Positions 458-22,184 of a stretch of 64,000 bases of DNA are shown one piece after another (position 1 is the first letter of the stretch; every line of letters starts with the position of its first letter). Source of the DNA: Bacteroidota bacterium (GTDB taxonomy: Bacteria > Bacteroidota > Bacteroidia > B-17B0 > Aurantibacillaceae). Where the stretch lies: positions 1 to 64,000 of the forward strand of contig JANYEQ010000054.1 of assembly GCA_025363015.1 (NCBI GenBank). The letters are read 5' to 3'. The notes under the pieces are model-generated. The model ran no database searches. It was not told where the DNA came from and was given only the letters and a program-made list of their open reading frames with translations. The position numbers and the translations under genes are program-made.

Positions 458-1492
458 CTAAGGCTTTTTAAATTTGTTACTAAGCACTAAACAACAATAA
501 GCAAGTCCACTAGAAATTAAAACAATAGCTAAAATGTATTTTAATAAATGCATTGGTAATAAAATGGTTTTATAAATTTGAGTAGCCATATTACCTATAA
601 TAAGCCATTGTATAACATATATTAGGGTTACATTTTTACCCAGCCATTTTAAATAATTTATAATACTATTATTATTGGTAATTAAATTAATTGTAAGATT
701 TAAAAAATAAACATAAAATGCTAAAAATACAATTACCCATAAAAAAAACAATATACCATGGTGGTAATAGGCTTGTAAATTAGATGAAATAGCCACAGCA
801 TATTTACCAGTAAATAATAATAAGCAAACAAATAACCCTGCAAAAAGTAATGTAGTTTTAGTGCGCATTAATGCTGTAACAGTATATTTTTGCTGTAGTT
901 GGTAAAATGCAAAACCTACCAAAGGGTATGCCAACCAAGGCAGTAAAGGGAAGTAAGACCAACTAGTACTTCCATAAAGTAAAGCCGAACTGTATTTTAA
1001 TATACTATTGGTAGGTATAGTATTTAAAAATAAATTGCCCAAAGCTGTCAAAATAACACTACTAATTAAAGTAAGCAGTACGTTTTTTTGTAATATATGT
1101 TTAAACACCGCTATTATGATAATGGCCATGCCAGCAAATTGTAAAATATCAATACCAAAAATGTAGGGCAATAAATTAATATGAAGTAAACCTTTATAAA
1201 CTTTAACTATTAAATTAAAATTTAAGGCTATGTTTAATACCATGCCTAAACAAAAAATGCTTAGTCCTCTTTTAATTAATTCAGTCGTTGTTTTATTTGT
1301 TGCTGCTAAAAAATAACCCATTAGCATTACAAATAATGGTGCTACTGGCGGGCCACCAGCAAAAAGTAATATTTTGCCTAAATAACTATTAAAAATTGTA
1401 TCGGTAGCAAACAACTCAATAATATGCACCTGAATCATTAATAAAACAGCAATTCCTTTTAACACATCTATAAATTGAAGCCTGTTTATCAT
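458..1492 (-). CDS. Multi-pass membrane protein, DUF1624/heparan-alpha-glucosaminide N-acetyltransferase-like acyltransferase
   Basis: N-term RLQFIDVLKGIAVLLMIQVH typical of DUF1624-type acyltransferases; many TM segments. Confidence 0.65.
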   Translation of the reverse strand: MINRLQFIDVLKGIAVLLMIQVHIIELFATDTIFNSYLGKILLFAGGPPVAPLFVMLMGYFLAATNKTTTELIKRGLSIFCLGMVLNIALNFNLIVKVYKGLLHINLLPYIFGIDILQFAGMAIIIIAVFKHILQKNVLLTLISSVILTALGNLFLNTIPTNSILKYSSALLYGSTSWSYFPLLPWLAYPLVGFAFYQLQQKYTVTALMRTKTTLLFAGLFVCLLLFTGKYAVAISSNLQAYYHHGILFFLWVIVFLAFYVYFLNLTINLITNNNSIINYLKWLGKNVTLIYVIQWLIIGNMATQIYKTILLPMHLLKYILAIVLISSGLAYCCLVLSNKFKKP

Positions 1493-1643
1493 TTTAAAAT
1501 GTAGCCTAAAGCCTGTTTAAATTTTATCTAATTTAATACATTTATAAAATATAGGCAATGCTGCTTCAACTACTAATTTTAATTAAAAATAATAGTAAAT
1601 AAAATTATTACCTTTAAACGTATTACCTTTATAATTATTTTAT

Positions 1644-2792
1644 ATGCCTTTTTCAACCTTTGGTTTATCTCCTTATTTATTAAAAACACTTGCCGAACAA
1701 GAGTATCAACAACCTACTCCTATTCAAGCTCAGGCCATTCCTGCCATTTTAAATAATAAAGATGTATTGGGCATAGCACAAACAGGTTCGGGTAAAACGG
1801 CAAGTTTTGTATTACCCATTTTACAAAAATTACAACATACTGCCGTTTCAAAAAACCGACATGTATCTGCTTTAATACTAGTTCCCACCCGCGAATTGGC
1901 CATTCAGGTAAACGACGTTTTTAATTTATTTGCCACTGCCTTACCACAAAAAATAAAAACATTAGCCGTGTATGGCGGTGTATCTATTAATCCACAAATG
2001 ATAAAACTACAGGGGGTAGAAGTTTTAGTGGCAACCCCCGGACGTTTATTAGAATTGGTTAGCGCAAAGGCCGTTCATTTATCCGACATACAAATTTTGG
2101 TGTTAGATGAAGCCGACAAAATGTTGAATTTAGGATTTAAAGAAGAAATGAATCAGATATTTTCTTTGCTTCCAAAAAAGCGTCAAAACTTATTATTTTC
2201 GGCTACCTTAAGCAATGATGTAACAAGCATTACCGCTATACTGTTAAGCCATCCTCTCATTATAAAAATTGAAGAAGATGATGAAACAAAAAAATTAGAC
2301 CTTATTAAACAATTGGCTTATTTTGTTTCGGACGAAAGAAAAGGCCCACTATTACGTTATTTAATTAAACACCAAGGCATGCAACAAGTTTTGGTATTTA
2401 CCTCGTCAGTTTTTAAAGCCGATGTAGTGGCCGATAAATTAAGAATTAATGATATTAAAGCCTTAGCCATCCATAGTAAAAAAAGCCAAGGCGCACGCGA
2501 AGAAGCCTTAAATAAATTTAAAGCGGGTAAGTTGCGCGTTTTAGTAGCAACAGATTTAATGGCACGTGGCATTGATATTAAATTTTTACCGCATGTAATT
2601 AATTATGAATTACCACGGTCGCCAAAAGATTATATTCACCGCATTGGGCGCACAGGTAGAGCGGAAGCAAGCGGCGAAGCCATTTCGTTAATTACACCCG
2701 AAGAGCAACATCATTTTAAAATAATTCAAAAAAAAATGGGTAAGTGGGTAACCATGATTGATAGTGTGGATTTAGATTTAAAAGGATATTAG
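1644..2792 (+). CDS. DEAD-box ATP-dependent RNA helicase (RhlE-like)
   Basis: Q-motif, AQTGSGKT, PTRELA, LDEADKML, SAT, HRIGRTGRA motifs. Confidence 0.95.
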   Translation: MPFSTFGLSPYLLKTLAEQEYQQPTPIQAQAIPAILNNKDVLGIAQTGSGKTASFVLPILQKLQHTAVSKNRHVSALILVPTRELAIQVNDVFNLFATALPQKIKTLAVYGGVSINPQMIKLQGVEVLVATPGRLLELVSAKAVHLSDIQILVLDEADKMLNLGFKEEMNQIFSLLPKKRQNLLFSATLSNDVTSITAILLSHPLIIKIEEDDETKKLDLIKQLAYFVSDERKGPLLRYLIKHQGMQQVLVFTSSVFKADVVADKLRINDIKALAIHSKKSQGAREEALNKFKAGKLRVLVATDLMARGIDIKFLPHVINYELPRSPKDYIHRIGRTGRAEASGEAISLITPEEQHHFKIIQKKMGKWVTMIDSVDLDLKGY

Positions 2793-5477: not shown

Positions 5478-6479
5478 TTATAATAACTCTTTTACGGTAT
5501 TAATTTTAGCAATTAAATTTTCCGATTCCATAAAATTTAAGGTTTGTTGCCCATCACTATAAGCTTCTTCAGGCTTTTCGTGTACTTCGTAAATAACGCC
5601 ATCAGCCCCTGCAAATAATGATGCTAAGGCAATTTTTGGAACATATTCTCTAATACCAATACCGTGAGACGGATCGGCAATAACAGGTAAATGCGATTTA
5701 TCTTTTAATACTTGTATTGCATTTATATCAAAGGTATTTCTATAAATTGTTTCAAAAGTTCTAATTCCACGTTCGCAAATCATGAGGCGCTCGTTACCTT
5801 TACTAAAAATATATTCGGCCGAATGTAATAATTCTTCAATAGTACCACTTACACCGCGTTTAATTAATACAGGTTTATCAATTTCGCCCAAGGCATCTAA
5901 TAAATTATAATTTTGTGAATTACGCGCACCTACCTGAAATATATCCACGTAATCAATCATTTCGTGTATTTGCGATACTTGCATGACTTCGGTTATTATT
6001 TTAATATTATTTTTTTTGCATTGCTGATGCATCATTTTTAATCCATCAATGCCTAAACCACGAAAAGCGTATGGCGAGCTACGTGGTTTAAAAACACCAC
6101 CGCGCATAATGTGAATATTATTTTTTACTAAATGCTCAACTATTTTGCTTACTTGTTCCTCACTTTCAATAGAACAAGGGCCTGCCATCATTGTTGGTGT
6201 GCCGTTACCAATAATAATATTATTACCTAAATCTATTTTTGTATAGTCGGTTTTCCATTTACGACTCACCAGTTTATAACTATCAGATACTCGATGTATA
6301 TCTTTAATACCTTTTAAATGCCCAATATTTCTTATATCAATATCGACTTTACCAATGCATATTAAATAGTTTTCAAACTGTGTATTAACTTTAGTTACCG
6401 AATATTTTTGTGCTTCAAGTGTTTGATAAATAATTTTAATATCAGCACTACTAATATTTTTTTGCAATTGAATAATCAT
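5478..6479 (-). CDS. aroF: 3-deoxy-7-phosphoheptulonate (DAHP) synthase, type I-beta with N-terminal ferredoxin-like regulatory domain
   Basis: MAGPCSIESEEQ, GGVFKPRSSPYAFRG, QVGARNSQN, DPSHGIG motifs; last gene of trp operon. Confidence 0.9.
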   Translation of the reverse strand: MIIQLQKNISSADIKIIYQTLEAQKYSVTKVNTQFENYLICIGKVDIDIRNIGHLKGIKDIHRVSDSYKLVSRKWKTDYTKIDLGNNIIIGNGTPTMMAGPCSIESEEQVSKIVEHLVKNNIHIMRGGVFKPRSSPYAFRGLGIDGLKMMHQQCKKNNIKIITEVMQVSQIHEMIDYVDIFQVGARNSQNYNLLDALGEIDKPVLIKRGVSGTIEELLHSAEYIFSKGNERLMICERGIRTFETIYRNTFDINAIQVLKDKSHLPVIADPSHGIGIREYVPKIALASLFAGADGVIYEVHEKPEEAYSDGQQTLNFMESENLIAKINTVKELL

Positions 6480-6485
6480 ACTTTT

Positions 6486-7262
6486 TTAGTTTTTTATGGT
6501 TGAAATAAATTGTGAAATATCTTTTTCGAAATTTGTTGAATGACCTACTAACGTTATAAACGACGAGCCTATTATGGCACCGTTTACTAATTTACACGCA
6601 GCATCAAATTCGGGTTTACCTTTAATACCAAAACCCATAAGCAATGGATTTTTTAAATGTAGATTTTTAATATCTTCTACCTTTTGTACTAAGGTTGTTG
6701 GTAACTCTTTACCAGAGCCTGTTGTAGAGTTTGATGATACTAAATAAATAAAACCTTTACTCTGTTCGTCAATTACTTTTATGCGCTGTGCCGACGTATT
6801 AGGGCTAATTAAAAACACAACATGAATATTGTATTTTTGAGCATACACTTTATGAACGCTATTGTATTCTTCTAAAGGTAAATCGGGTAATATAAGCCCA
6901 TCAATCCCCACTTCGTTACATTTTTGGTAAAAGGTTTCAATACCAAATTGTAACACCGTATTAATATATCCCATTAATAATACTGGCATTTGCGTTACAC
7001 TACGAAGGTTTTTTAGTTGTTCAAAAATATTTTTTAAGGTAACACCGTTTTCTAATGCAACTTGGCTACTTTGCTGTATAATAGGTCCATCGGCTAAAGG
7101 ATCAGAATACGGAATACCAATTTCTATTAAATCAACTTTACAAGCATCTAATTGTTTTATGATAGCCAATGTATCATCATGTTTAGGATAACCAGCTGTT
7201 AAAAAAATAGAAAGTATATTTTTGTTTTTTTGTTTAAATAAATTATCAATTCTATTTTGCAT
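6486..7262 (-). CDS. trpA: Tryptophan synthase alpha chain
   Basis: [18 protein letters not shown] and LLMGFGI motifs; trp operon context. Confidence 0.96.
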
Positions 7263-8463
7263 GGGTATGTGTGTCTAAATAGTTAATGTATGTTGTTAAA
7301 TCTTTGTCGCCACGCCCCGATAGATTTAATACAACCGTATCGCTTGGCTTAAAGTTTATTTGAGATAGAGCTGCTAAGGCATGAGCACTTTCTAAGGCAG
7401 GAATAATACCTTCTTTTTGAGTAAGATTAATCACTGCATGCATGGCTTCATCATCGGTAACACTTAAATAGTTTGCACGTTTGGTTTCAAATAAATAAGC
7501 GTGTACAGGTCCTACACCGGGGTAATCTAATCCCGCCGAAATACTATATGGCTCGGTAATTTGTCCGTCATTGGTTTGCATTAAATAGGTTTTACTACCA
7601 TGTATAATGCCAGGTGTACCAACGGTTAGCGTAGCAGCCGTGTGTCCAGAATGAATACCTTTACCCGATGCCTCAACACCAATTAACTGTACCTCTAAAT
7701 CATTTAAAAAATGGTAAAATGCACCAGCAGCATTGCTCCCACCACCAACACAGGCAATTACATAATCAGGATTTTGTTTACCAACACAACTTAGTAATTG
7801 TGTTTTTATTTCGGCGCTAATAACCGATTGAAAACGTGCGACCATATCTGGGTAAGGATGTGGACCAACTACGGAGCCTATAATATAGTGTGTATCCTCT
7901 GCATGATTAATCCAATCTCTAATGGCTTCGTTGGTAGCATCTTTTAATGTTTTAGTACCCGATGTTACGGATACTACTTTTGCTCCCAACATTTTCATTC
8001 GGGCAACATTGGGTGCTTGGCGCTCAATATCGGCTTGCCCCATATATACAATACACTCTAAACCCATTAATGCGCAAACTGTTGCGGTAGCTACACCATG
8101 CTGGCCAGCACCAGTTTCGGCAATAATACGTTTTTTACCTAAACGATTGGCTAATAAAATTTGACCTATTGCATTATTAATTTTATGTGCACCTGTATGA
8201 TTTAAATCTTCGCGTTTTAAATAAATAGTAGTGTTAAATTGCTTAGATAAATTTTTTGCTAAATATAAAGGTGTTGGCCGACCTACATAATTTTTTAATA
8301 AATCATCAAACTCTGTTTTAAACGATTGACTATTCATAATCGTTAAGTAGTTATTTTTTAATTCCTCAACATTATTAAATAATATTTCGGGAATGTAAGC
8401 TCCGCCAAACTGGCCATAATAGCCAAATTCATTTACATTAAATTGATTTTTAGTTGCTGTCAT
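7252..8463 (-). CDS. trpB: Tryptophan synthase beta chain
   Basis: [35 protein letters not shown] motifs. Confidence 0.98.
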
Positions 8464-9082
8464 TGTTAGTTAAGGTTGATATAAATGTTTTTATTTTTTC
8501 TGAATCTTTTAATGCGGCATTAATTTCAAATTTTGAATTAATATCAATACCAAATAATTGTGGGTGATGAAACTGTTTTATTTTATCGATAGACTGTTCA
8601 TCAATACCACCACTTAAAAAAAAAGGTGTTTGTAATTGATAATGTTTTAAAATATCCCAATTAAATTGTTGTCCACTACCCCCAAATGCTTTGGTATCAT
8701 TATCAAACAAAAAATAATCAACATAAGGTATATATTTTTGTATATCCTTAAAATTAAACGTATCGTTAATTCTAAAAGCTTTAATAACTTTTGCGTAGGG
8801 TTTTAACTCTTCACACATAACTTCAGTTTCATCGCCATGAAGTTGCACAACATCTAAATTATAATTTGCTACAATATTTTGTATGGAATTGATCGGTTCG
8901 TTAACAAACACACCCACTTTTTTAATATGTTTTGGAAGAGTTTTTATAAAATCAAAATCTAAAACATCATCAACATAGCGTAGGGATTTTTTATAAAAAA
9001 TAAAACCCATATAATTAATAGGCAACAGACTAAGTTGCTTAATATTATCTTGGTATTTTAATCCGCACACTTTAATTTTCAT
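8450..9082 (-). CDS. trpF: Phosphoribosylanthranilate isomerase
   Basis: [26 protein letters not shown] motifs; operon context. Confidence 0.95.
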
Positions 9083-9089
9083 ATTTATT

Positions 9090-9887
9090 TTAGTTTACGC
9101 TTTGTAAATTTAATTGTTTAATAAACGCTTTACAGGCCAAATCGGGCTGCGGGTGTTTCATGAAATTACTACCAATTAAAAAGCCATTGTAGCCATGTGA
9201 TTTTAGTTTAATAATTGTATCAATATCTTCAATACCACTTTCAGAAACTTTTACAATATGTTTGGGTAATAACGTACTCATGATTATTGATTGATTAATA
9301 TCAAGTTTCATCGTATTTAAATTACGATTATTAACGCCTACCACATTAACTCTATCATATACTTTATCTAGTTCCTCTGGGCCGTGCAATTCTAAAAGCA
9401 CTTCCATACCTAATGAGTGTGCCATATCTGTAAACTGCACAATTTTAGCTTGTGTTAAAATTGCAGCTATTAATAAAATAGCATCGGCACCTATTGATTT
9501 TGCTTCAGTAATTTGATATTCATCAATAATAAAATCTTTACGTAAAATGGGGCAAAAATTAAATTTACGAGCCGTTGTTAAGTCTTCGCTCGAACCACCA
9601 AAAAAAGTTTTATCGGTTAATATGGATAAAGCACTTGCACCAGCTTGCATATAACCAATAGATATTTTTTCGACATTGGCATATTTATTAATTATACCAA
9701 GCGACGGTGATTGTTTTTTTATTTCAGCAATAATACCATTTTTATCTGGGCGTAATAAATATTTAGATAATGAAACTGATTGCGCTTTAAAATAAATGCT
9801 ACGTTCTAGTAATGGCTGTGGGTATAAAGCTTTACGTTCTTTTACTTCAATAATTTTATGCTCAACGATATTAGTTAATGTTTTCAT
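9090..9887 (-). CDS. trpC: Indole-3-glycerol-phosphate synthase
   Basis: IAEIKKQSPS, LRKDFIIDEYQI, GVNNRNL, SESGI motifs. Confidence 0.97.
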   Translation of the reverse strand: MKTLTNIVEHKIIEVKERKALYPQPLLERSIYFKAQSVSLSKYLLRPDKNGIIAEIKKQSPSLGIINKYANVEKISIGYMQAGASALSILTDKTFFGGSSEDLTTARKFNFCPILRKDFIIDEYQITEAKSIGADAILLIAAILTQAKIVQFTDMAHSLGMEVLLELHGPEELDKVYDRVNVVGVNNRNLNTMKLDINQSIIMSTLLPKHIVKVSESGIEDIDTIIKLKSHGYNGFLIGSNFMKHPQPDLACKAFIKQLNLQSVN

Positions 9888-9905
9888 TTTTTAGTTTAAT
9901 TTAGT

Positions 9906-10889
9906 TTAAGATACAAGTTGTTTAAATAATAAATACGTTTTTTTCGATTCAATGGTTTCTTTACAAATAGCTATACACTCTATAACACTTAGTTTAGGAC
10001 TAACGCAATTCATTGCAAAAGCACTATTAACAAGCACTACATTTTTTTGTTCGTTGGTACATTCGTTTTTTAATACATTTAAAAATATATCAGCAGCATC
10101 TTTAATGGTTTCTCCACCCGAAATACTTTGTTGGTTTTGTAATTTAAAACCTAAATCAATAGGTTCTATCGTTTTTTCATAAGTAGATGAAATACACTTA
10201 AATGTGGTAGTTAAACTTATTTCGTCATAGCCATCTAAGGTATGTACTAATGTATAATTTGAATTATTTTGTTGTAAAATATAATGGTACAAACGCGCAA
10301 TATCTAAACCATATACCCCCACATAACGGTGGCTTACACGAGCCGGATTTACCAATGGTCCCAGCATATTAAACAACGTTCGTACACCTAGTTCTTTACG
10401 CTGAGTAGCCACAATTTTTAATGCTGGATGAAACAACGGCGCGTGCATAAAACAAATATTGTGCTTATCTAATTCTTTATTTAAATCGTTTGAATTATTT
10501 TTAAACTGATAGCCCAAGTAATTTAAAATATCGCTTGAACCTGATACAGACGATGAACCATAGTTACCATGTTTGGCTACAGTTATGCCTGATGCCGCTA
10601 ATACTAAGGCCGATAAGGTAGATATATTAAAAGTGTTTTTTTGATCGCCACCCGTACCACACACATCAATTGCATTACGTTCAATAGTTACTGGCACACA
10701 TACATCTAATAAGGCGTTTTTAAATCCGTTTAATTCGTTAGCTGTAATAGGGCGAGCGATATAAAAAGTCATAATGGCACTCATTTGCGAAGCATTAAGT
10801 TTACCTTCACAAATATTTTGAAACAGCTGATAAGCCTCTGTTTCAGATAAGTTATGCCCATGACATAATTTTTCAAATGTTGTTTTCAT
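9906..10889 (-). CDS. trpD: Anthranilate phosphoribosyltransferase
   Basis: DVCGTGGDQKNTFNIST, AKHGNYGSSSVSGSSD, RTLFNMLGPLVNPA motifs. Confidence 0.97.
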   Translation of the reverse strand: MKTTFEKLCHGHNLSETEAYQLFQNICEGKLNASQMSAIMTFYIARPITANELNGFKNALLDVCVPVTIERNAIDVCGTGGDQKNTFNISTLSALVLAASGITVAKHGNYGSSSVSGSSDILNYLGYQFKNNSNDLNKELDKHNICFMHAPLFHPALKIVATQRKELGVRTLFNMLGPLVNPARVSHRYVGVYGLDIARLYHYILQQNNSNYTLVHTLDGYDEISLTTTFKCISSTYEKTIEPIDLGFKLQNQQSISGGETIKDAADIFLNVLKNECTNEQKNVVLVNSAFAMNCVSPKLSVIECIAICKETIESKKTYLLFKQLVS

Positions 10890-10952
10890 CTTTATTATAA
10901 TTTATTTTTTCAATCTATATCGCCGGTGCAACGTATCACTATCTATTTATAA

Positions 10953-11522
10953 TTAAGATTCAATCCAATTTTTAATCATCACTTCTCCATATTCCGAAAG
11001 TATAGATTCGGGATGAAATTGCACCCCTCTTACATCAAAACTAGTATGTTGTAACGACATAATATTTTTTTCTGCATCAATAGATGTAATTTTTAAGCTA
11101 TTTGGTAATTGTAAATTATTTACTACCCAAGAGTGATAGCGCCCAACGGTAAAGGAAGTAGGACAATTTGCAAACACAACATCTTGTTTTACAACGGTTA
11201 TAGGTGTTGCAATACCATGGTAAACGGTTTCTAAATTTTTAAGAGTAGCCCCATAAGCCTCGCCAATGGCCTGTAAGCCTAAGCAAACACCCAATATACT
11301 TTTTGTAGCGCCATACTGTTTTATTAATTGGGGCATAATGCCTGCATCTTTTGGCAAACCTGGTCCAGGTGATAATAAAATTTTATCAAAACGATTAACG
11401 TCTTCTACTAAAATTTTATCGTTGCGTATTACTTCAAATTCTATATCGCTTACTTTTTCAATTAAATGAACTAAGTTGTAAGTAAAACTATCGTAATTAT
11501 CTAATACTAATAATTTTTTCAT
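10953..11522 (-). CDS. trpG: Anthranilate synthase component II (glutamine amidotransferase)
   Basis: LDNYDSFTYNLVH, GVCLGLQAIGE, GVQFHPES motifs. Confidence 0.96.
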   Translation of the reverse strand: MKKLLVLDNYDSFTYNLVHLIEKVSDIEFEVIRNDKILVEDVNRFDKILLSPGPGLPKDAGIMPQLIKQYGATKSILGVCLGLQAIGEAYGATLKNLETVYHGIATPITVVKQDVVFANCPTSFTVGRYHSWVVNNLQLPNSLKITSIDAEKNIMSLQHTSFDVRGVQFHPESILSEYGEVMIKNWIES

Positions 11523-11524
11523 TT

Positions 11525-12943
11525 TTATGCTGATTTAATATTATTAAACTTTTCGGCTTGTAAAATGGCTTTTTGTAAGGCCGATACTTTATGATTAATT
11601 TCTTGTAATTCTTTTTCTTCATCCGACGAAATAACAATACCTGCCCCCGCTTGGTAATGTAGCGTATTATCTTTACTTAAAAATGTACGAATCATAATGG
11701 CGTGGTTTAATTGATTATCGTGACTAATTAAACCGATGCAACCTCCGTAAAATTCGCGAGCTACAGGTTCGTAAGTATCAATTAATTGTAAGGCTTTGTA
11801 TTTTGGTGCGCCCGATAATGTGCCTGCTGGAAAAGTGCCAAACAATAATTCAAATGGATGAAACTGCTGTTTTACCTTACCAACTACCTTGCTTACTAAA
11901 TGTATAACATGCGAATAAAACTGTGTTTGTTTTAAAAATTTAACATTAACAGTATTGCAATACTTACTTAAGTCGTTTCGTGCCAAATCAACCAACATAT
12001 TATGCTCGGCATTTTCTTTAGGGTCGTTGAGTAACTCTTTTGCTTTTTCTAAATCGTAATCATCGTTACCTGTGCGCTTGTATGTACCAGCAATAGGGTG
12101 TATTTCGGCTTCTTGTTTGCTAATTACTAATTGTGCTTCGGGCGATGAGCCAAATAATTTAAAATTACCTAAATCAAAATAAAATAAATAGGGCGATGGA
12201 TTAATATTTTTTAAAGCACGATATACGTTAAAATCATCGCCCGTAAATGTTTGTGAAAACCTACGCGACAATACCAATTGAAACACATCGCCATTTTGGC
12301 AATGCCCCTTAGCCTTTTTTACCATGGTTCGGTAATCATCATCTATTAAAGAACTTGTTGTTTGGCTTGTTGTATTAAAATTAAATTGGCAATGAAAGAG
12401 GCATTGTATCTGCTCTTCAACGGTTAATAATTGTTGTTTTGTTTCTTCTTCAGAAATATGATGGCTAATAACCGTTAAGGTATTGGTAGTATGATGAAAC
12501 ACTAAAATAATACCATACACACTATATAATAAATCAGGAATATCAACAGCTTTAGCGCCTTTACTAAGACTAATATCTTCGGCGTAATTAATACAATCGT
12601 AACCCATATAACCAAATATACCTGCGTAACAAAATGGTAAATTTTGTGTATCAAATATAAATTGTTCTTTAAATGCAATTAATTTTTTTAAAATATTTTC
12701 CGAATCGTTAGTAATGGTTTCTTTAATAATGGTACCATTTATTTTTGTTTTAAATACAGATTGATGTAGCGATACCGTTGCTAATGGATTTAAGCAGATG
12801 TACGAATAATGGCCATCTTTACTGTTGTAATCCGAACTTTCTAACAACAAGGGATTTTGATATAAATCTCTTAATGCCAAATATAAGGCCACTGGTGTTT
12901 TAGTATCGGCTAATAGCTGTGTTGTATGTGTGTATAATTTCAT
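11525..12943 (-). CDS. trpE: Anthranilate synthase component I
   Basis: QLVLSRRFSQ, SSPEAQLVISK, HPIAGTYKRT, GTFPAGTLSGAPK, GAGIV motifs. Confidence 0.97.
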   Translation of the reverse strand: MKLYTHTTQLLADTKTPVALYLALRDLYQNPLLLESSDYNSKDGHYSYICLNPLATVSLHQSVFKTKINGTIIKETITNDSENILKKLIAFKEQFIFDTQNLPFCYAGIFGYMGYDCINYAEDISLSKGAKAVDIPDLLYSVYGIILVFHHTTNTLTVISHHISEEETKQQLLTVEEQIQCLFHCQFNFNTTSQTTSSLIDDDYRTMVKKAKGHCQNGDVFQLVLSRRFSQTFTGDDFNVYRALKNINPSPYLFYFDLGNFKLFGSSPEAQLVISKQEAEIHPIAGTYKRTGNDDYDLEKAKELLNDPKENAEHNMLVDLARNDLSKYCNTVNVKFLKQTQFYSHVIHLVSKVVGKVKQQFHPFELLFGTFPAGTLSGAPKYKALQLIDTYEPVAREFYGGCIGLISHDNQLNHAIMIRTFLSKDNTLHYQAGAGIVISSDEEKELQEINHKVSALQKAILQAEKFNNIKSA

Positions 12944-12956
12944 AAAAAAATTTATT

Positions 12957-12992
12957 AAAAAAAAAGCCCGCTGTTTTGTGAACAGCGGGCTT
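12957..12992 (-). terminator. trp attenuator Rho-independent terminator (minus strand)
   Basis: Perfect 12-bp stem AAGCCCGCTGTT/AACAGCGGGCTT, 5-nt loop, followed on minus strand by a 9-nt T tract, just upstream of the trpE ATG. Confidence 0.95.
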
Positions 12993-13020
12993 GGGATATG
13001 CCTTTATAAGAATATAAATC

Positions 13021-13083
13021 TTAGCTACTCACAACAGTTGTTGAAAGCCACCACCAAAATTTATTTACTACTTGAGTTTTCAT
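13021..13083 (-). CDS. trpL: trp operon leader peptide MKTQVVNKFWWWLSTTVVSS (20 aa; three consecutive Trp codons)
   Basis: Read codon by codon on the minus strand: ATG AAA ACT CAA GTA GTA AAT AAA TTT TGG TGG TGG CTT TCA ACA ACT GTT GTG AGT AGC TAA; lies between promoter and attenuator terminator of trpE; below the size cut-off of the ORF track. Confidence 0.93.
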   Translation of the reverse strand: MKTQVVNKFWWWLSTTVVSS

Positions 13084-13092
13084 TTAATGCTA

Positions 13093-13123
13093 CAAATATA
13101 AAAAGTATTTTTTAGTATGCAAA
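13093..13123 (-). promoter_or_regulatory. Putative trp operon promoter (Bacteroidota sigma-ABfr type: TTTG-N19-TATATTTG)
   Basis: Minus strand TTTG (13123-13120), 19-nt spacer, TATATTTG (13100-13093) matching TAnnTTTG; leader ATG begins 9 nt downstream. Confidence 0.8.
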
Positions 13124-13208: not shown

Positions 13209-14258
13209 ATGATTGATTTTAGTAGAGCGCAATTAACTCATTTTGCAATTAATTTTGTTGGTAATAAAGGTTTAGGTGAAGAACTTACCCTTAGCCAAAA
13301 TCTTATAGAATTTAAAGATGACTTTGTAAAAGAAACCTTATTGCGTTATTTTTTACAACCCTTTAAAACCGATATTTATCATCAATTTAAAGGCAAAGTA
13401 GATATTAGCCTTGCCAGTGTTGCCAATGCTGCCGAAGATTTATTTAAAAGTCAAAGCCAATTTATAAATCACTCACAACAATTGGCACAACATTTATACA
13501 ACCAAAGCAATCACCCAAAAATTAAAGGGGGCGAATTTTATGTCTGTTATTTTAAAGATGCCGTGGTTGATGGAGAATTATGTGATGCCATTGGTTTATT
13601 TAAAACCGAAAATAGAGAAACATTTTTAAAAGTGTTTCAGCATGTAGATACTTTTGATGTAGATTGTGATAACGGTATAAATATTAATAAGTTAGATAAA
13701 GGCTGCCTAATATTTAATACCGATAAAAAAACTAATTACAAGTTAAGCATTATTGATACCAATAATAAAATTGCTGAATGTGCTTTGTATTGGGAAGAAG
13801 ATTTTTTAAACGCAACCATTAAACCAAACGGTTATTATTTTACTAAAAACTTTATAGATGCGTCGCGGGGTTTTTGCGAAGAAATTTTAACAGAAACAAA
13901 TAACGTTGCTAAGCCCGACCAAATGATGATGCTAAACAAAAGTACCTCTTACTTTAAAGATAAAGAAAAAGTAAACGTGGCCGATTTTGAAAAAGATGTA
14001 TTAGTGGAACCCGATTTAATTACTGCCTTTAAAGAGTATAGAAACGATTTTAATAAGCGATTAGATTTAACCGCCGTTGAAGAATTTGATGTAAGTCAAA
14101 CAGCCGTTAAAAAAAACAATAAGTATATGAAAAGTGTAGTTAAACTAGATAAAAATTTTCATTTATACATTCACAGTAGGCACGATTATGTAGAGCGAGG
14201 TTATGATGATGAAAAAGGACTTAAATACTATAAACTATTTTACGTAAACGAAGTTTAG
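13209..14258 (+). CDS. Nucleoid-associated protein, NdpA/37-kDa family
   Basis: Resembles the NA37 family in Bacteroidota (AQLTHFAINFVGNK...FYVCYFKDAVVDGELCDAIGLFK). Confidence 0.75.
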   Translation: MIDFSRAQLTHFAINFVGNKGLGEELTLSQNLIEFKDDFVKETLLRYFLQPFKTDIYHQFKGKVDISLASVANAAEDLFKSQSQFINHSQQLAQHLYNQSNHPKIKGGEFYVCYFKDAVVDGELCDAIGLFKTENRETFLKVFQHVDTFDVDCDNGININKLDKGCLIFNTDKKTNYKLSIIDTNNKIAECALYWEEDFLNATIKPNGYYFTKNFIDASRGFCEEILTETNNVAKPDQMMMLNKSTSYFKDKEKVNVADFEKDVLVEPDLITAFKEYRNDFNKRLDLTAVEEFDVSQTAVKKNNKYMKSVVKLDKNFHLYIHSRHDYVERGYDDEKGLKYYKLFYVNEV

Positions 14259-21671: not shown

Positions 21672-21738
21672 TAATAGAGCGAGCAGTTAATAGTTATTGT
21701 TTTAAATTATCAATCTACGTCCATCCATCTATTTTTTT

Positions 21739-22103
21739 GCAAGTTTGTAAGCCGGGTTCTGTTTCATTTTATCTCTCAATAAAATATATCTATCATTTAT
21801 CTTTGCGACCTACCCATTGTAGCTTTCAATAAATTGAAATAAAGCGAGCCGCCTTAATTACTACAACCTATTTGGCCTTTCAACACCCGAGGTTTACCAA
21901 ATTTAATTATCACTAACTAAATTTGTGAGCTCTTACCTCACATTTTCACTATCACCCTTATTACTAAAGGCTACCTTGTCTCTGTGGCACTTTCTGTTGT
22001 ATGGCATTTTGTGCTATACACCCACTTTTTCAAATGGCGGGTTGCCCTATGTTGCCCGGACTTTCCTCTGAAAAAATTAATTAACAGCGATAGACCAACT
22101 TGC
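21739..22103 (-). ncRNA. rnpB: RNase P RNA (bacterial type A)
   Basis: Minus strand contains CAGAGGAAAGTCCGGGCAACATAGGGC (P4 5' half), ACAGAAAGTGCCACAGAGA, GTAAGAGCTCAC, AACCTCGGGTG, ATGGGTAGGTCGC and 3' ACAGAACCCGGCTTA; 5' GCAAGTT pairs with 3' AACTTGC (P1). Ends approximate. Confidence 0.95.
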
Positions 22104-22184
22104 AGCATAAATTTACGAATAATATTGATAAGATTACTAAAAAAAATGTAATTAGGTTTAATTAAATAAACTAAAACATTAAAC

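Follow-up and report, generated by a model that had tools for sequence, protein, structure and literature searches.

The window, that is, the whole 64,000-nucleotide stretch of DNA that was analysed, carries on its minus strand eight same-strand genes, trpEGDCFBA and a gene for 3-deoxy-7-phosphoheptulonate (DAHP) synthase, which are preceded by a predicted leader peptide ORF, trpL, and an intrinsic terminator (Table 1). These eight genes make up the cognate pathway of the leader. The best NCBIfam match of trpE is TIGR00564 (trpE_most), with a score of 428 bits that falls below the curated cut-off of 517.7. An earlier note, made from the sequence alone, had placed the leader just before trpE, at the head of an eight-gene operon, and both the placement and the operon were borne out by NCBIfam matches and gene order. 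The upstream neighbour gene (13209-14258) is located on the plus strand and is divergent. No match to prephenate dehydratase was found in the source genome. Elsewhere in the window, a bacterial RNase P class A RNA (RF00010, 189 bits) is encoded at 21732-22106 on the minus strand.

Table 1. Features of the trp leader region and operon, with window coordinates.
Feature	Position	Strand	Composition	Basis
Predicted Bacteroidota promoter	13093..13123	-	TTTG (13123-13120), 19-nt spacer, TATATTTG (13100-13093)	Matches TAnnTTTG
Predicted leader peptide ORF trpL	13021..13083	-	ATG (13083-13081), 20 codons encoding MKTQVVNKFWWWLSTTVVSS, TAA (13023-13021)	Conserved in relatives
Three tandem Trp codons (TGG; regulatory codons)	13048..13056	-		WW/WWW in nearly all relatives with trpE
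1:2 protector hairpin	13022..13053	-	13053-13041 (Trp codons and following bases) with 13034-13022	RNAalifold consensus, 19 relatives
Region 2	13024..13034	-	UUGUGAGUAGC; last leader codons, antiterminator 5' arm	Duplex, constrained folds, pair counts
Region 3	12976..12986	-	GCUGUUCACAA; antiterminator 3' arm	Overlaps terminator 5' arm and loop
Intrinsic terminator (3:4)	12957..12992	-	12-bp stem (12992-12981/12975-12964; hairpin 12992-12964), 5-nt loop, U tract of nine T (12965-12957)	Covaries in relatives
trpE	11525..12943	-	Anthranilate synthase component I, first controlled gene	TIGR00564; first of seven trp genes in order
trpG, trpD, trpC, trpF, trpB, trpA, DAHP synthase	5478..11522	-	Rest of operon	NCBIfam

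The predicted trpL is a short leader ORF that harbors tandem codons for the amino acid of the pathway, and the 20-codon minus-strand ORF with three TGG codons described in the earlier note is indeed present. The sequence TGGTGGTGG occurs at 134 sites in the genome and is therefore not special alone; its context is. The intrinsic terminator lies between this ORF and the first structural gene. Seven of its 12 stem pairs are G-C, and the first T residues of the U tract are also used by the last pairs of the stem. The 12-bp terminator and 9-nt U tract had been described correctly to the base, and among relatives both sides have changed in 4 of the 12 pairs, indicating covariation.

Three further elements, the promoter, the protector hairpin and the antiterminator, had not been identified in the earlier note. 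Regions 2 and 3 form the 11 pairs of the antiterminator (2:3), and bases 12986-12981 are common to this duplex and the terminator stem, so that the 2:3 and 3:4 structures are mutually exclusive. The 1:2 protector hairpin corresponds to RNAalifold columns 31-43 paired with columns 50-62. The leader RNA as a whole folds with an energy of -37 kcal/mol, compared to -24.3 ± 3.2 kcal/mol for shuffled sequences (z -3.9).

Conservation was assessed at trpE loci from two sources, the 35 of 100 searched genomes with a TrpE match (E <= 1e-40) and 80 named loci retrieved by scanning bacterial and archaeal genomes, with records named as Bacteroidota. Among these relatives and named Bacteroidota, 113 trpE upstream regions were long enough to judge, and in 95 of these a terminator follows a leader peptide that carries a Trp pair, a combination found in none of 1130 randomised regions. 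The figure of 95 is a lower bound, as the automatic terminator rule missed terminators that are visible at four loci (L049, L054, L060 and L134). Thus, the TGG codons and terminator, whose conservation in relatives the earlier note had put forward as a check of its proposal, are conserved. Some trpE genes (L093, L132 and L102) have no recognisable Trp-pair leader before them, and at two loci (L057 and L065) the candidate leader contains one Trp codon. These predicted leaders support classical trp attenuation as the ordinary arrangement across the Bacteroidota that keep trpE.

Many of the 100 searched genomes are nearly complete, and most of those within the genus have no TrpE match at this threshold, a distribution that suggests patchy Trp prototrophy among the related genomes. 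One class-level relative (G047) encodes two trpE genes (L038 and L064) with separate Trp-codon leaders, MKKQFVNNSWWWFSTKVVNG and MILNTNTWRWQVSLS. The first of these resembles leaders from the family to which the window belongs and could reflect horizontal transfer of the operon together with its attenuator.

Pairing between the antiterminator arms was examined across the 95 leaders. With the region 3 of the same leader, region 2 pairs at a mean energy of -14.8 kcal/mol, compared to -10.8 kcal/mol with the region 3 of other species. The true partners outdid every one of 20,000 partner permutations, the best of which reached -12.2 kcal/mol, in a comparison that corrects only partly for relatedness. 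Against composition-matched shuffles of region 2 the mean z was -2.5. Among the 19 closest leaders, 94.9% of the antiterminator cells pair, while at most 48.7% do so when the arms are slid by 1-3 columns. In two of the leaders (L046 and L048), a G-C pair of the antiterminator is replaced by A-U, accompanied by a V-to-I change in the peptide. Counts of both-sided changes within the close clade are weak when taken alone, as 117 of 500 shuffles yield at least as many such pairs.

To relate these structures to the position of a ribosome, the leader was folded with the bases that a ribosome would cover blocked. With the ribosome halted at the first, second or third TGG codon, region 2 is free and the predicted fold of the nascent RNA is the 11-bp antiterminator; with the ribosome at the stop codon, region 2 is covered and the terminator alone is left. 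The full-length leader at equilibrium is predicted to prefer the terminator even with a stalled ribosome, and the nascent RNA folded in the constrained calculations with no ribosome also adopts the antiterminator and not the 1:2 hairpin. Attenuation would therefore need kinetic folding, as in the classical model.

From the parts, their geometry and their conservation, which can be read in the sequence, we infer how stalling, termination and the response to Trp would proceed, as well as the exact start of transcription. Transcription would begin approximately 5 nt before the leader ATG. When Trp-tRNA is ample, the ribosome would pass the three Trp codons and reach the UAA directly after region 2, thereby covering region 2; the 3:4 terminator would then form and RNA polymerase would stop at the U tract, releasing a leader RNA of ~130 nt. 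Under a shortage of Trp-tRNA, the ribosome would stall on the Trp codons, and region 2, left free, would pair with region 3 before transcription reaches region 4. This 2:3 pairing would prevent formation of the terminator, and the operon would be transcribed. If the leader is not translated, the 1:2 hairpin could sequester region 2, making termination the default. By far the best account of the locus is a ribosome-mediated transcription attenuator of the trpEGDCFBA-DAHP synthase operon, and this account is very probably correct. The earlier note had arrived at the same reading, and all of its parts that are testable in sequence, including the antiterminator that the note had not picked out, are present and conserved.

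Other explanations can be set against this body of data. As 20-codon ORFs are common and TGGTGGTGG occurs often in the genome, the short ORF and the hairpin could stand together by coincidence, or the hairpin could be the terminator of the upstream gene. However, the upstream gene is divergent, the same combination recurs before trpE in the large majority of the loci examined but never in randomised sequence, and both stems covary or coevolve. Chance is thus refuted by conservation (95/113 versus 0/1130), and we regard either form of this explanation as exceedingly improbable. In other phyla, T-box and TRAP leaders give rise to terminated leaders ahead of trp operons, and a Trp-sensing leader of that kind, or a Trp riboswitch, would render the ORF incidental. 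Yet Trp_leader was the sole Rfam match at the locus at gathering score, no T-box or TRAP-type Rfam family was found at E values up to 10, and the relatives conserve the leader Trp codons together with the arrangement of region 2 and the stop codon. On the strength of these Rfam scans we rejected T-box, TRAP and other riboswitch types, leaving such a sensor next to no probability.

A different possibility is an arrest-peptide switch resembling TnaC, in which the sequence of the nascent peptide, and not the supply for the Trp codons, would stall the ribosome. The peptide is conserved in the nearest relatives (KKQFVNNSWWWFSTNVVNS type), as this would predict, but over the phylum as a whole the flanking residues vary widely and conservation is confined to the Trp run. 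The conserved C-terminal VVNS is explained at the RNA level, being encoded by region 2, and the V-to-I change in L046 and L048 accompanies a compensating change in region 3. Moreover, systems of the TnaC type activate Trp catabolism at high Trp, which is opposite to the need of a biosynthetic operon. A peptide-sensing switch is therefore very unlikely.

The promoter predicted upstream of trpL bears on how the leader would be translated. A scan with the sigma-70 consensus was uninformative (2 found versus 7.1 expected) and the Bacteroidota TAnnTTTG box was used instead. The 25 nt upstream of the leader ATG contain this box in 77 of 105 leaders, compared to 2.7% of shuffles, and the commonest spacing to TTTG across the leaders is 19 nt. 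In the window the box ends 9 nt before the ATG, and because the Bacteroidota promoter box is described at -12 to -5 (PMC9723704), the predicted +1 falls near 13088, which would give a 5' UTR of 5 nt. In 54 of the 105 leaders the box ends 4-10 nt upstream of the ATG. By contrast, 5' UTRs of this length are uncommon in the phylum: 5.5% leaderless is given for F. psychrophilum (PMC9723704), about 3.7% of the 5' UTRs of B. thetaiotaomicron are shorter than 10 nt (PMC7366714) and leaders exceed 10 nt in 87% of F. johnsoniae transcripts (PMC6847099). We somewhat favor the view that trp attenuators in much of the Bacteroidota are built on a near-leaderless mRNA, with the leader ATG 0-6 nt from the start of transcription; the ribosome loading required for attenuation would then take place at the 5' end with no Shine-Dalgarno sequence, unlike in enterobacterial trpL.

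How the window leader relates to known leader families was addressed with two Rfam models. It passes RF00513 (Trp_leader, enterobacterial trpL) over the whole model, albeit marginally, with 42.4 bits against a cut-off of 41 (E 2.4e-5 in the window). Of 60 genomes, the source genome alone exceeds this cut-off and near relatives fall below it; as a survey in relatives the model is uninformative, since sub-threshold matches abound in nearly all AT-rich genomes. With the RF00513 leaders it shares tandem Trp codons, regions 1-4, a stop codon beside region 2 and a terminator. The E. coli trp leader has two tandem Trp codons, whereas the window leader has three and is predicted to lie on a near-leaderless mRNA. 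Given that a single genome of the 60 exceeds the RF00513 cut-off, the features common to the window leader and enterobacterial trpL could be convergent.

The second model, RF01692 (Bacteroid-trp), comes from the same phylum and likewise includes a leader ORF with tandem Trp codons, a hairpin over the end of the ORF and the start of a terminator 5' arm. In the source genome RF01692 matches nowhere but at the window site, and the 45.0 bits reached there (E 5.7e-4 in the genome) lie below the curated cut-off of 49, which places the site just outside the curated model. None of 18 related genomes passes this cut-off, while 4 of 20 scanned Bacteroidota loci with trpE do, all of them flavobacterial. 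The latter have terminator and antiterminator elements of the type CUUGUC...GACAAG, in contrast to the GCUGUUCAC type of the window.

Bacteroid-trp was listed among cis-regulatory RNAs of Bacteroidetes by Weinberg et al. in 2010 (PMC2864571); a description of its occurrence ahead of the trp operon in F. psychrophilum draws a comparison to E. coli (PMC6414381). Leader-peptide attenuation has also been proposed for amino-acid operons of F. psychrophilum (PMC9723704). The F. psychrophilum leader, also a Bacteroid-trp element before a trp operon, differs from that of the window in lineage and leader sequence, and the available portions of PMC6414381 and PMC9723704 contain no experiment on its response to Trp. 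The novelty within Bacteroidota that the earlier note had implied is thus not sustained, given the 2010 publication of RF01692 and the description of the F. psychrophilum operon. The predicted mechanism is already known, as is its presence in the phylum, and the window leader would work like a classical trp attenuator.

The same design may extend to another pathway. Two hisG copies were found in G000, at L168 (C94, hisG 68757-69302, minus strand) and L169 (C57, hisG 1252-1797, minus strand), and upstream of each lies a small ORF with four His codons (MQKFNQIHHHHSTATQVSGGVDAIL and MKNLNQIHHHHSAFTKVSKGVEGIL). At L168, a TACATTTG box precedes the His ORF and a terminator, AAAGGCTTACCAATCGGTAAGCCTTTTTTTT, follows it; GCTTACC in this terminator could pair with a complementary GGTAAGC of the leader. 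L168 is likely a his attenuator of the same design as the trp leader.

These results leave the attenuation mechanism as it is known unchanged, and in this respect carry little surprise. The new points are modest: a lineage of predicted leaders that lies below the Bacteroid-trp cut-off, and leader mRNAs that are predicted to be near-leaderless. The first indicates that the Rfam Bacteroid-trp model, passed by so few of the Bacteroidota trpE loci, misses whole lineages. Should the near-leaderless design be confirmed, it would reveal how attenuation works in a phylum where initiation does not rely on Shine-Dalgarno sequences.
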